This document shows positions 9,452 to 63,474 of a DNA stretch of 64,000 nucleotides, in pieces; the stretch's first letter is position 1, and the number at the start of each line of letters is the position of its first letter. A model generated the notes under the pieces. It worked only from the letters and a program-made list of their open reading frames with translations. It was not told the DNA's origin and did not search any database. Both the position numbers and the translations under genes were made by a program. This DNA comes from Candidatus Lariskella endosymbiont of Epinotia ramella (lineage in GTDB: Bacteria; Pseudomonadota; Alphaproteobacteria; Rickettsiales; Midichloriaceae): the NCBI RefSeq assembly GCF_964019805.1, contig NZ_OZ026472.1:62001-126000 (forward strand), given 5' to 3'.

Positions 9452-9597
9452 CATACCTCCTATAGGTGAAGAGTTGTTATTTATTAATTATGCACATACG
9501 AAGTTAGACTTCAAAAAGAGCCAAGAAGAATGAGGGTGCATATGTATACATAAGGAGCATTTTAAAGGCGTCAATTTTAAAAAGTATGTTGAGTATA
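9452..9597 (-). repeat. D-family repeat
   Basis: Reverse copy. It runs from catacctcctataggtgaagag through atacgaagttagacttc, then aaaaagagccaagaagaatg, to ttaaaaagtatgttgagtata. The A repeat begins at the very next base. Confidence 0.8.
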
Positions 9598-9853
9598 GTC
9601 GCCTGCGTCATAACTCTAAGAAGCAGAAGGTTTATATTGGCCTGCAAGCAATTATAATGCAACGAAAGTCATGCAGGAAAAGTGGCAAAGTTGCCAAAAA
9701 CCTTATGGCTTTTGTTAAGTAATATTTGTTAGTATTGGACAAATTATATATCCGAAAATTAGCGCAAGGCCGCGCCTAAAAGCTAATTTTTGTACATTGC
9801 ACTTTCGGCAAGATATTTATTTGCAGAGCAAATCGATTTTTGATGGACAGATT
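9598..9853 (+). repeat. A-family repeat
   Basis: Full-length copy: it starts gtcgcctgcgtcataactct, contains gtggcaaagttgccaaaaac, atatccgaaaattagcg and agctaatttttgtacatt, and ends aaatcgatttttgatggaca. Three internal hairpins are possible: GGCAAA/TTGCC; AAATTAGC/GCTAATTT; and a terminal one at ATTTGC/GCAAAT. Confidence 0.85.
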
Positions 9854-13826: not shown

Positions 13827-13993
13827 TACTTAAGATGTAAAGCTATATATGAGATCTGAGCATGATATTGCTTATAAGTTCGTTGTTATGTCTTTAATAA
13901 TGAGTCATAACTAACCTTAAGTTACTGTGTTTTGTAGTTTTAGAATAAGCCTAGAAACTCAAAGAAGTCTAGTGAATGTATTGTAAATAGAAA

Positions 13994-14412
13994 GTCGCCT
14001 GCGTTATAACTCTCGAATGTAGGGATTTATGTTCTGGTTGCAAGCAATTATGATGCACCGAAAGTCCAGCAGAAAAAGTGGCAAAATTGCCAAAAACCTT
14101 ATGGCTTTTGTTAGATACTGCTTATAAAGTGCACGCACGTGAATTTGAAGGGCATGATTTTTTAGAGTACAAGTTAATTTCTAAGTCAAATATTATATAT
14201 CTTTGCGAAGGAATCAATGAAGTAATACTTGAAAATTAGGCCGCAAAGGTCTGCACAAGTGGCTTTGCAGGCAGTACCTAAGTTGTATTTGCAAGTACGG
14301 AATTAATATATCCAAAAATTAGAGCAGGGTCGCGCCTAAAAGCTAATTTTTGTATATTTAACTTTCCACAAAAATTTATTTGCGTAGCAAATCGATTTTT
14401 GACGAGCAAACC
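13994..14412 (+). repeat. A-family repeat with nested B element
   Basis: The left half runs gtcgcctgcgttataactct to ccttatggcttttgtta, and the right half from tgtatttgcaag to aaatcgatttttgacg. Between them lies about 170 bp of B sequence. The right half keeps the AAAAATTAG/GCTAATTTTT hairpin and the ATTTGCgtaGCAAAT hairpin. Confidence 0.85.
14113..14283 (+). repeat. B-family element nested in an A repeat
   Basis: Runs from gatactgcttataaagtgca through catgattttttagagtac, atttctaagtcaaatatta and gaagtaatacttgaaaa to ggcagtacctaagt. The insertion point matches that of the partial B in the A repeat at 23717-24053. Confidence 0.8.
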
Positions 14413-20370: not shown

Positions 20371-20383
20371 TGCATTCTTCTGA

Positions 20384-20625
20384 GTCACCTGCGTCATCAC
20401 TCTAAGACTTGAGGATTTATATCGGTTTCAAGTTATTATGATGCACCGAAAGTCCAGCAGAAAAAAATGGCAAAATTGCCAAAAACCTTATGGACGTTGT
20501 TAAGTAGTATTTGCTAGGTACAGGACAAATTACATACCAGAAAATTAGCGTATGTGTGCTTTCAAGCTAACTTTCGTATATTTAACTTTCCGAAAAATTA
20601 ATGTGCGTAGCAAATCGACGAAATA
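20384..20625 (+). repeat. A-family repeat
   Basis: Starts gtcacctgcgtcatcactct, contains gatgcaccgaaagtccagca, tggcaaaattgccaaaaacc and gtagtatttgctaggtacag, and ends gtgcgtagcaaatcg. The central stem is AAAATTAGC/GCTAACTTT. Confidence 0.85.
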
Positions 20626-23538: not shown

Positions 23539-24207
23539 TAGCTGATTTTACTTGCACGCCAAGAGTATGTAAATACTGCATATATATTGATGTATTATGT
23601 ATACATGTGCATCACATTCTGCCTAGCTTTTTTGAAATCTCACTTCGTATATACTTAATAAATGCTAAATCGTCATCTATCATGGGTAGATATTTAAGTA
23701 GCATGGACCTTACTAAGTCGCCTGCGTCATAACTTTCGAAGCGGAGGATTGATATTAGCTGCAAGCGATTATGGCGCCCCGAGAATCCAGCAGAAAAAGT
23801 GGTAAAATTGCCAAAAATCTTAAGGATTTTATGGTATATTTGCGAAGAAATTAATGAAGTAATACTTGAAAATCAGGCCAAAAAGTTTTGCGCAAGAGGC
23901 TTTGTCGGCAGTACCTAAGTAGTATTTGCTAGGTACAGGACAAATGAGATCTCAGGAAGTGAGCGCAGAGCTGCTGTCAAGCTCATTTTTGTACATTTAA
24001 CTTTGCACAAAAATTGATTTGCTTACGCAAATCAATTTTTGACGGATGGGCTACATAATGAGCAATCTTTAATGCGCTAATTTTGCAATATAGCGAGTAT
24101 ATATAATGAATTCCATACTAAACACCGTCACTTTTCTCTGCATTGGAAGCTTTTTAGTCAGTGATAACTTATAATGTAGCATCCAATATCCAATCAAAAC
24201 AACAAAT
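23539..24207. other. spacer with D remnant and an A repeat carrying part of B
   Basis: A partial D repeat lies at about 23585-23690 (tatacatgtgcatcacattc, ctagcttttttgaaatctc). It is followed by an A repeat (23717-24053) with a partial B insert. The rest runs up to gltX without recognisable genes. Confidence 0.7.
23717..24053 (+). repeat. A-family repeat with partial B insert and covarying stems
   Basis: Left part gtcgcctgcgtcataacttt; B remnant at 23835-23930 (gcgaagaaattaatgaagta to ggcagtacctaagt); right part agtatttgctaggtacagga onward. The central stem here reads TGAGC/GCTCA instead of the usual TTAGC/GCTAA. The last hairpin (24009-24040) is a perfect 14-bp palindrome with loop ttac. 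Confidence 0.85.
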
Positions 24208-26183: not shown

Positions 26184-26531
26184 TTTCACAAAGTCGCCTG
26201 CGGCAACTATAAAGGATATAGAATTTATCTTGATTGCAAGCAATTATGGTGCGCATAAATCCAGCAGGAAAAGTGGTAAAATTGCCGAAAATCTTATGGA
26301 TTTTGTTAAGTAATAATTTTTGCGTAGAAGTTAAATGCACAAAAATTAGCTTTTAGATCTGCCCTGCGCTAATTTTTGGATATATTAATTGGCTCTATGC
26401 TAAATGCTACTTTCACAAAATCCGTAAGTTTTTTGCGCTTATTCTAACATTTTCTTACGGACTTAAAACACTATTTTCCAACTCTAAACACTATTTGATA
26501 CAGCTTCTGAGACTTTTAGTGTGCGTATAAA
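26184..26531 (+). repeat. A/C hybrid repeat
   Basis: The whole spacer is repeat sequence. It opens as an A repeat (gtcgcctgcggcaactataa, aaagtggtaaaattgccgaa, cttatggattttgttaagta). It then switches to the inverted common module (agaagttaaatgcacaaaaa, gctaatttttggatatatta) and finishes with a C tail (cacaaaatccgtaagttttt to gagacttttagtgtgcgta). Two element types have therefore been joined, or their shared module has inverted. Confidence 0.8.
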
Positions 26532-27656: not shown

Positions 27657-28203
27657 ACCTAATAAGATTATAAATTTGTTTGCATTTATTCAACTATAAA
27701 TTGCGCCGTGTTAAACATTGGAGCATGCTTACCTAAGATCGTCATACTGTTCAAAATTAATGCTTTTAGAATGTGCCTTATGTATTTTACACTTGTGTAC
27801 CATTCTTCTTAGCTCTTTTTGAAGTCTAATTTCGTATCTAGTCTGTCCGTCAAAAATCAATTTGCTGCGCGAATAAATTTTTGCCGAAAGTTCAATGTAC
27901 AAAATTAGCTTGTAGGTGTGGCCCTATGCTAATTTTTGGATATATTCATTGGTCCCATGCCGCGCGCAAACACTATTTTCACAAAATCCGTAAGGTTTTT
28001 GCATTTATTATGACATTTCCTTACGGATTTAAAGCGCTATTTTGACGCTCGGGGCACTATTTCATGCGCACTTTTGAGACTTTTGGCGCGCGTACTATAT
28101 AATATTTTACTCAGAAAATTAAATACTAACTATTACTGGAAGTATAAATGCAAATAGTGATTTTTAAAACAAAATCAGAGATGTCAATTACAGCGCAAAA
28201 TCA
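27657..28203. other. spacer with D and C repeats, then the old ychF downstream sequence
   Basis: A truncated D repeat (27738-27836) runs straight into a C repeat (27847-28105). The 28106-28203 stretch was once the sequence immediately downstream of ychF; its last three bases (tca, 28201-28203) are the original ychF stop codon on the minus strand. Confidence 0.7.
27847..28105 (-). repeat. C-family repeat, full copy
   Basis: Common module (gtccgtcaaaaatcaatttg, aaattagcttg, gctaatttttggatatattc), then the C tail: cacaaaatccgtaaggtttt, ttattatgacatttccttac, ggatttaaagcgctatt, gcgcacttttgagacttttg, ending ggcgcgcgtac. The arms tccgtaag/cttacgga form a hairpin. Confidence 0.85.
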
Positions 28204-34200: not shown

Positions 34201-34261
34201 ATGTGCTGTGTGAGGACTAGTTTATATAAATTATCTAGGCACTGCGGGTAGAGCCTTAGTT

Positions 34262-34515
34262 TGTCCGTCAAAAATCGATTTGCTGCGCAAATAAATTTTT
34301 GTGGAAAGTTAAATGTACAAAAATTAGCTTTTAGCCCTGGCTCTGCCATAATTTTTGGATATATTAATTTGTCCTGTACCTAGCAAACACTACCTAACAA
34401 AATCCATAAGGTTTTTGGCAATTTTGCTACTTTTTCTGCTGGGCTTTCGGTGCGCCATAATTACTTGCAGGCCAAGATAAATACTGCGCTCCTTAGAGTT
34501 ATGACGCAAGCGACT
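34262..34515 (-). repeat. A-family repeat, reverse copy
   Basis: From gtccgtcaaaaatcgatttg through acaaaaattagcttttagcc, taatttttggatatattaat, ggcaattttgctactttttc and tgctgggctttcggtgcgcc to gagttatgacgcaagcgact. Confidence 0.85.
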
Positions 34516-35243: not shown

Positions 35244-35880
35244 ATATATCGGTTAAGCACTTGTAAATAGCACTAGCACGTTTGTTTTATAAGATGAACG
35301 TTATGAATTTTTTTGTATGTTTAGTGCCTGCTGCGTATTTTGGCAAAATTAGAATACTTCGTAAGTATATCCGCTAAAAATTGCTTTGCTACGCAAATAA
35401 ATTTTTGCAGAAAATTAAATGTACAAAAATTAGCCTAAAGCCAAAGGTCCCAGCACTAATTTTCAGATATTATTTGTCCTGTACCTAGCAAATACTATTT
35501 AACAAAATACATAAGATTTTGGATAAATTTGCCATTTTCTACTGGACTTTTGGTGCACCATAATTGCTTGCATGTCAATATCAATCCTCTAGTTTCTTGT
35601 AAGTTATGACGCAAAAACTCATAAATTCTAAGGAGGTAAGAGCATTATTTTAGTATTATATGTTCCAATCCTTATTCGAGATTCTCCTTTGATATTTCAA
35701 ATGTAGCTTATTCATCTAAGATAATATACAAAGACGTAATAATTCCATCGTTCTTTCGGGCGCATATGAGGATTTTTAGGTATTTTGTGATTTGCAAACT
35801 CTATTTATCATGTCTATAATCATTCTAGAAGGTGTTGCACAGTTTGTGTTTTTAACTTGTTTTAGATCTTTGGAGAGCAG
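35244..35880. other. spacer with reverse A repeat
   Basis: An A repeat covers 35366-35618. The remaining 260 bp before the RND gene contain no recognised gene or repeat. Confidence 0.65.
35366..35618 (-). repeat. A-family repeat, diverged reverse copy
   Basis: Recognised by aattgctttgctacgcaaat, gtacaaaaattagcctaaag, gcactaattttcagatatta, gtcctgtacctagcaaatac, attttctactggacttttgg and aagttatgacgcaaa. Confidence 0.8.
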
Positions 35881-49677: not shown

Positions 49678-50125
49678 GCTTGAGAATAAATGACTATACT
49701 CAAGTTCGTTAGTCTGTCCGTCAAAAATTAATTTGCTATATAAATAAATTTTTGCGGAAAGTGAAATGTACAAAAATTAGCTTAAAACCACAGCCCTGTG
49801 CTAATTTTCGGATATATAATTTGTCTGATACTTAAAAATACTACTTAACAAAATCCATAAGATTGTTGGCAATTTTACCACTTTTGCTGCGGGATTTTTG
49901 GTGTATCATAATTGCTTGCAGGCCAATATATAAACCACTCAGCTTCTTAGAGTTATGACGCATGCGACTAGTTCAAGTATAATGACAAATGTATTTTGTG
50001 TTATCCGCTGATTATGCAAAAAGTAACCTGAATGATGCCGCAGTTATTAATTAAGTTGCACTTTAGTTCTATTTTGTGTTATCTTCACTTCTCACTAAAG
50101 TTTGTTTTACATGGAGTGTTTTTTC
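49678..50125 (-). repeat. spacer mostly occupied by a reverse A repeat
   Basis: The A repeat covers 49710-49972: gtctgtccgtcaaaaattaa, gtacaaaaattagcttaaaa, gctaattttcggatatataa, ggcaattttaccacttttgc, cataattgcttgcaggccaa, gagttatgacgcatgcgact. The remaining 150 bp lead into fabH. Confidence 0.8.
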
Positions 50126-63036: not shown

Positions 63037-63474
63037 ATATTCTCCCATAAATAACGTATATTCATCCTTCCCTTTGGTAACAAAGTCATACTTTTCAAAA
63101 CTGGCACTGTCAAAGTACTTCTATGTATTTGGTATACACATGCACCAAAATTCTTCCTAGCTTTTTTGAAGTCTAACTTCGTATACATATAACAGACTTC
63201 TTATTAAAACTCGCTTCCAGTTTAGGCAAGCGCAAGAAGCATACGAAAGCGCGAGGAAGCGCAAGTGTACAAGAAATACATAAGCATCCAAAACACGGAT
63301 GCGGCCAAGCAACTGGCTGCCGAAACAAGCGTCTGAAGAAAGGATCTAATAAATACCAACTCTTCATTTACCTGTGGTATATATCCTTTTGCACGACCAT
63401 TTTTCCTATACGATTATCAGTTAAATAAAAGTCAAAATCGCTTTAAGGAATATGAACTTTATATTTGCTGGATA
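63037..63474. other. spacer with a D repeat split by a G-type insert
   Basis: A D repeat from about 63085 to 63382 is broken at 63187-63351 by sequence with a higher GC content than its surroundings. A 64-codon minus-strand frame (63173-63367) runs across the insert and is not called. Confidence 0.7.
63085..63382 (+). repeat. D-family repeat interrupted by a G-type segment
   Basis: Left part gtcatacttttcaaaactgg, gtatttggtatacacatgca, gaagtctaacttcgtataca; right part ataccaactcttcatttacc and tgtggtatatat. The insert carries gcttccagtttaggcaagcg, caagaagcatacg, ccaagcaactggctgccgaa and acaagcgtctgaagaaagga, related to the G sequence at 34.1 kb. Confidence 0.75.

Follow-up and report, generated by a model that had tools for sequence, protein, structure and literature searches.

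The window, by which is meant the whole stretch of 64,000 nucleotides that was analysed, comprises bases 62001–126000 of a single-contig genome of 1.59 Mb, and its spacers are filled by diverged dispersed repeats (40 nt or longer) that belong to at least 24 families. Spacers so filled with repeats are unusual in a symbiont genome of 1.6 Mb. Among the named contigs returned, the GltX of this genome comes nearest to Candidatus Midichloria, at 52–54% identity, and the bacterium is accordingly taken as a Midichloriaceae-like member of the Rickettsiales. The A repeat is a MITE-like sequence of about 256 nt, and every one of its copies listed for the window is intergenic relative to the open reading frames of 120 aa or more. 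The copy studied here lies at 23.7 kb; its parts, and the other A copies of the window, are as follows.

23716–24052, plus strand: the A copy at 23.7 kb, from AGTC to a GGCT end, of the B-containing subfamily
23712–23715, plus strand: left flank ACTA, where the 4-bp target duplication lies, preceded by T (from the family-wide flank logo and duplication test)
24053–24056, plus strand: right flank ACAT, where the 4-bp target duplication lies, followed by A (from the same logo and test)
23800–23813, plus strand: hairpin H1, TGGTAAAATTGCCA, double changes at background
23835–23912, plus strand: B segment within the 23.7-kb copy, which also occurs alone elsewhere
23954–23964, plus strand: H2 5′ arm, AGGAAGTGAGC, containing TGAGC
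23981–23991, plus strand: H2 3′ arm, GCTCATTTTTG, containing GCTCA
24008–24022, plus strand: H3 5′ arm, CAAAAATTGATTTGC
24023–24026, plus strand: H3 loop, TTAC
24027–24041, plus strand: H3 3′ arm, GCAAATCAATTTTTG
9597–9851, plus strand: A copy
13993–14411, plus strand: A copy interrupted by B plus further sequence
20383–20618, plus strand: A copy with an incomplete right end
27840–28092, minus strand: A-type copy of the TTATAATAA-like subfamily
34258–34515, minus strand: A copy
35364–35613, minus strand: A copy
49711–49969, minus strand: A copy

At 26192–26519 of the window, two A-related stretches of opposite orientation overlap around one central hairpin.

The A Repeat as Mobile DNA

A sequence-only model of the A repeat gave at least 162 matches in the genome (E of 0.01 or better), a number obtained with 150 of 1445 candidates scored and in which some copies are counted twice, as two partial matches; a DNA search with a single A copy gave no match in 52 related genomes, where no more than 14 candidates were scored per genome. 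The termini read AGTC…GACT and lie in terminal inverted repeats that are present and imperfect (AGTCGCCTGCGTCATAA and AGTCTGTCCGTCAAAA), and the common pattern of the A ends is found at 65 sites, against 1 for the reversed control pattern. The flank logo shows T-ANNT preceding AGTC on the left (48 ends) and ANNT-A following GACT on the right (60 ends). Among the 26 copies with two ends, the 4-bp flanks are identical in 6, where 0.73 would be expected, and alike at three or more positions in 17, where 4.8 would be expected, and neither value was reached in any of 5000 flank shuffles; this identity above the shuffles indicates that the A repeat makes a 4-bp target duplication at a T-ANNT-A target. 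The flanks of the 23.7-kb copy itself, ACTA and ACAT, agree at only two of the four positions.

The A repeat is MITE-like mobile DNA that has spread by transposition with a 4-bp target duplication, and it is apparently non-autonomous. It shares with the bacterial MITEs many short, repeated and intergenic copies, terminal inverted repeats and a target duplication of fixed length, and it differs from them in having at least three internal hairpins, no match in the 52 related genomes, and no autonomous partner, that is, no element with A ends and a transposase, in a search by the exact end pattern; when the 65 exact-pattern sites were read by eye, no inward-facing pair of ends 1–3 kb apart was seen.

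Matches to IS630-type transposases are present in the genome. The IS630 family and its MITEs have a TA target and other ends, in contrast to the 4-bp ANNT duplication and AGTC ends of the A repeat, and flanks that match over 2 bp occur in only 3 of the 26 copies, so that no TA target duplication is seen. An IS630 source for the A repeat was rejected, since both of the IS630-type elements that were read have other ends. One of these elements, at about 1440–2400 of locus L144 on the minus strand (genome about 383574–384534), has CAGCAT...ATGCTG ends, stands between TA repeats and is inserted in the left end of an A copy; the other, at 1040–1975 of locus L145, has inverted ends of its own and directly adjoins an A copy. 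An element of the REP or IS200–IS605 type, which has neither terminal inverted repeats nor a target duplication, was likewise rejected because the A repeat has inverted ends and a 4-bp duplication; one Y1 transposase gene is found in the genome.

By their centre, 151 classifiable copies fall into two subfamilies, 89 being TGGCAAAATTGCCA-like (TGGCAA-like) and 62 TTATAATAA-like. The statement, made from the letters alone, that a GGCAAA/TTGCC hairpin is kept in most copies needs correction, GGCAA/TTGCC being exact in 30 of 153. In the tree, the 23.7-kb copy falls in a 12-copy clade (SH-aLRT 99) together with others that are likewise divided by the B segment.

Paired Changes in the Hairpins

The original prediction held that both arms of the central stem, H2, had changed together in the 23.7-kb copy, that the last hairpin, H3, differed in step, and that such compensatory change would suggest that the folded RNA, or single-stranded DNA, is what matters. 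The two structural statements are confirmed by the sequence: TGAGC is read at 23960–23964 and GCTCA at 23981–23985, and H3 is a perfect stem of 15 bp (24008–24022 with 24027–24041) around the loop TTAC. The form TTAGC/GCTAA, given as that of most copies, is read in the 9.6-kb copy and is exact in 75 of the 135 scored, a majority; the 14.3-kb copy, named as a further example, has TTAGA in its 5′ arm. The double change to TGAGC/GCTCA occurs in the 23.7-kb copy only, out of 135, and in four other copies of the 135 either TGAGC or GCTCA stands with a partner that does not match; for this H2 pair (columns 164–189) there is 1 double change against 0.11 expected (n = 118). The arms of H2 in this copy retain three G-T positions, and its H2 loop is not inverted. 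The perfect H3 stem is shared with five other copies among 88 scored, and the G.C pair that completes it is not a preferred one, columns 221 and 237 holding T.C in 59 copies, G.A in 13, G.C in 13, T.A in 10 and T.T in 9 (n = 106). An earlier set of 165 rows was used for the H2-pair count, columns 221/237, the perfect-stem score and the listing of double changes.

Covariation was measured by column shuffles, in which Watson–Crick changes on both sides were counted, by sliding the partners against each other, and by a tree-based count. From 403 matches, the removal of overlaps and of scores below 40 left 209 rows, of which 135 had a complete H3 core, and 99 of these had enough body for a tree. 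In H3 there are 14 double changes, against 4.8 expected, a value reached in none of 2000 shuffles, and its slid controls give 0–4, at or below expectation except at +3 (4 against 3.4). H2 has 7 against 3.9, which 173 of 2000 shuffles reach, and with its 3′ partner slid by one column the count is 8 against 3.1; H2 is thus not distinguished from background. The other hairpins are also at background: O1 with 6 (7.7 expected), H1 with 15 (18.5) and H1b with 3 (3.3). When the substitutions were re-placed on the branches of the tree, H3 had 6 double changes against 2.2 (13 of 1000) and H2 had 5 against 2.5 (99 of 1000), with 4 against 1.9 for H2 slid by +1, and the remaining hairpins were at the null. 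Paired change above background is found in H3, and it is not distinguishable in the central stem that the original prediction stressed.

When H2 and H3 are taken together, their 18 conserved pairs have 6 double changes against 1.4 (15 of 10,000 shuffles). Five of the six are of the type A-T to C-G or T-A to G-C, for which passage through a G.U step is impossible, and the sixth is A-T to G-C; these pairs hold 46 G.U and 33 A.C cells, which is no significant excess (p = 0.18). For the total pairing, 73 of 98 listed copies were aligned separately with MAFFT; it amounts to 90.9% in H2 and H3 against 90.7% in shuffles (125 of 500) and is thus not kept above chance. In the same alignment the pairs changed on both sides number 9 against 4.6 (3 of 500), with 6–11 in the slid versions, and the covariation score lies above that of each of the 500 shuffles and of each slid version. 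The paired changes of H3 are thus in small excess, and pairing as a whole is not maintained.

Inversion of the H3 Loop

The loop of H3 occurs in two orientations. Among 135 copies, the three-base loops and their reverse complements number 31 GCA and 4 TGC, 15 GTA and 5 TAC, 12 ATA and 3 TAT, and 2 ACA and 2 TGT, and the 4-nt loops 17 TTGC and 10 GCAA. Inverted loops make up 14 of the 92 of three bases, where the column frequencies lead one to expect 0.62 and 20,000 column shuffles gave 5 at most. The mismatch in the arms is swapped along with the flip, copies with G.A having 6 inverted and 3 forward loops and copies with T.C having 2 and 34 (p = 0.00025); for 4-nt loops this link is a tendency only (p = 0.10). 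The flips are scattered over the copies: on a tree made without H3 (99 copies), the 11 inverted loops among 53 classifiable copies need 11 changes, a count of independent flips that leans high given that 62 of the 96 inner branches are unresolved, and two sister copies only 0.57 kb apart have the loops GTA and TAC.

The inversions are linked to the paired changes. Where a paired change affects the outer H3 pairs 214–220, a range picked after inspection, the loop is inverted in 5 of 10 copies and not in the other five, as compared with 9 of 82 in the remaining copies whose loop has 3 nt (p = 0.0065). With every paired change of H3 included, inversion is seen in 5 of 14 copies against 9 of 78 (p = 0.035), and one-sided changes show no link with inversion (2 of 24 against 12 of 68).

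No clear flip was seen among 135 loops of H2, a hairpin whose loop is long. Five score better when reversed, two by palindromic inserts in opposite orientations, two by 3–4 points and one by a partial match to the minus strand; the insert, of about 20 nt, is carried by the H2 loops of loci L205 and L197 (genome 60367–60501 and 1462997–1463147). For O1, none of 147 interiors scores better reversed. A control hairpin from a different dispersed repeat, GAAGT-CTA-ACTTC, with arms of 5 bp and a loop of 3 nt and unlike H3 in more than the length of its arms, shows no TAG loop and one TAA loop over 79 genome sites. These sites were taken at two mismatches or fewer and include window positions 9496–9516 and 63164–63184. 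A route to the inverted loops by two indels was rejected, since its intermediates are nearly absent from the 135 loops (one TA, and no GC, CA, GTAC or TGCA).

Discussion

A functional RNA structure is ordinarily argued from covariation. In the A repeat, however, covariation is found in mobile DNA and alongside inverted loops, so that a mutational source is indicated, and we consider it probable, at roughly 0.7, that the H3 paired changes come mainly from polymerase template switching in a DNA hairpin and not from selection on RNA. The A copies would have decayed separately after transposition, and in H3, with arms of about 15 bp and a loop of 3–4 nt, the polymerase would sometimes have switched template between the arms during replication. 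If only one arm were copied, both sides would be made to match, which would read as a paired base change; if the copying ran through the loop, the loop would be inverted and the arm mismatch swapped. With template switching as the best account, the paired changes say little in favour of a functional RNA. For the one H2 change at 23.7 kb, the same process or coincidence may be responsible, and as one event it has no explanation of its own. Of the two molecules that had been proposed, single-stranded DNA was the better guess, as the probable site of a copying error and not as a demonstrated target of selection.

Selection on a folded RNA would suppose that the A copies are transcribed and that their hairpins act as RNA, as terminators, RNase sites or stabilizers of mRNA, with mutations being compensated. 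The excess of H3 double changes over shuffles and tree, the covariation score above all shuffles and the pairs changed on both sides would agree with this, as would the relatively good conservation of the H2 and H3 arms, the A- and T-tracts that border both stems, the one terminator-like site of the 23.7-kb copy and the fold z-scores of two copies (−2.82 and −3.98). However, two further copies fold no better than shuffles (−0.65 and −1.05), terminator-like sites show no excess (10 against 8.6 in shuffles), the RNAalifold covariation term is unfavourable (+0.55, 18 copies), the total pairing of H2 and H3 is not above the shuffles, the slid versions reach as many both-side changes or more (up to 11), G.U does not significantly exceed A.C, and O1, H1 and H1b are at background; such selection does not predict loop inversions. 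Rfam at gathering scores returns two tRNAs in the whole window and no RNA family at the A copies. Selection on RNA would thus have played little part, we judge it improbable as the source of the paired changes, and the analysis does not support the proposal of a folded RNA as the thing that matters.

Other routes can be imagined by which the hairpin would be flipped as DNA, either by recombination between the arms in a cruciform or by hairpin processing linked to transposition, the latter being considered because 11 nt separate H3 from the element's right end. Recombination predicts the exchange of the arms together with the inversion of the loop, as in the G.A copies with inverted loops, and the flips do occur copy by copy; but it swaps the arms without making them alike, and so gives none of the paired Watson–Crick changes that accompany the flips, and we think these routes unlikely and replication template switching the more probable cause. 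Coincident separate mutations, or subfamily differences that were inherited, would be enough for O1, H1 and H1b and possibly for the H2 pair at 23.7 kb, and a strong subfamily structure inflates some of the slid controls (62 against 27 for H1 slid by −3). Chance or inheritance cannot, however, give 14 inverted loops against 0.62, and explains neither the scatter of the flips over the tree nor the H3 excess on it, which makes it very improbable as a general account.

Template switching could be extended in two ways. More tentatively, and with more doubt than confidence on our part, H3 might owe its palindromic form chiefly to self-templating that recurs as often as point mutation or more often, so that covariation would arise without selection on RNA; the basis for such a rate is that 15% of the three-base loops are inverted while the median end branch has 0.12 changes per column. 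In a bolder form, the flips would be made during transposition itself.

Quasipalindrome correction is a template-switch mutation of inverted repeats; what is compared here are the dispersed copies of a single bacterial repeat and not orthologues. In the yeast genes treated in one report, template switching homogenized the arms and inverted the spacers, with inversion only where arms exceeded 9 bp and with a preference for short spacers (PMC8604942). For rRNA, a second report describes loop inversion alone as enriched, and paired change with loop inversion as rare and not enriched (PMC8794818). H3 resembles the cases presented in these sources in arm homogenization, spacer inversion, long arms and a short loop (PMC8604942; PMC8794818), and differs from that account of rRNA in that its paired changes occur together with loop inversion; unlike in the published template-switch cases, the ancestral states of the A family are not known copy by copy.

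In the open literature, nothing on point was met with for repeats of this bacterial group, nor for bacterial repeats that undergo template switching or invert their loops, or in connection with R-scape, which does not imply that there is none. Minute hairpin inversions are known from chloroplast spacers such as trnH-psbA (PMC2903610, which cites Kelchner and Wendel 1996). Such an inversion in the trnH-psbA spacer, as described in PMC2903610, is like that of H3 in being non-coding, homoplasious and found in both loop orientations, and differs in affecting a loop of 25–27 bp between 18-bp repeats at one locus, where H3 has a loop of 3–4 nt in a dispersed repeat.

Because the genome carries the same hairpin many times over, arm copying, loop inversion and point mutation can be compared directly, and the A family, if the self-templating reading is true, would be a natural mutation-accumulation experiment on template switching within a single genome. 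RNA searches in repeat-rich genomes could be checked for covariation artefacts by means of this family.

The arms of H2 and H3 are among the better conserved parts of the A repeat, and not alone in that: at A/T columns their divergence is 0.045–0.067, against 0.021–0.163 in other parts and 0.27–0.48 in the loops. Arm copying, selection and the method by which the copies were found could each contribute to this conservation, the first of these being proposed for proteobacterial inverted repeats in a passage of PMC8604942.
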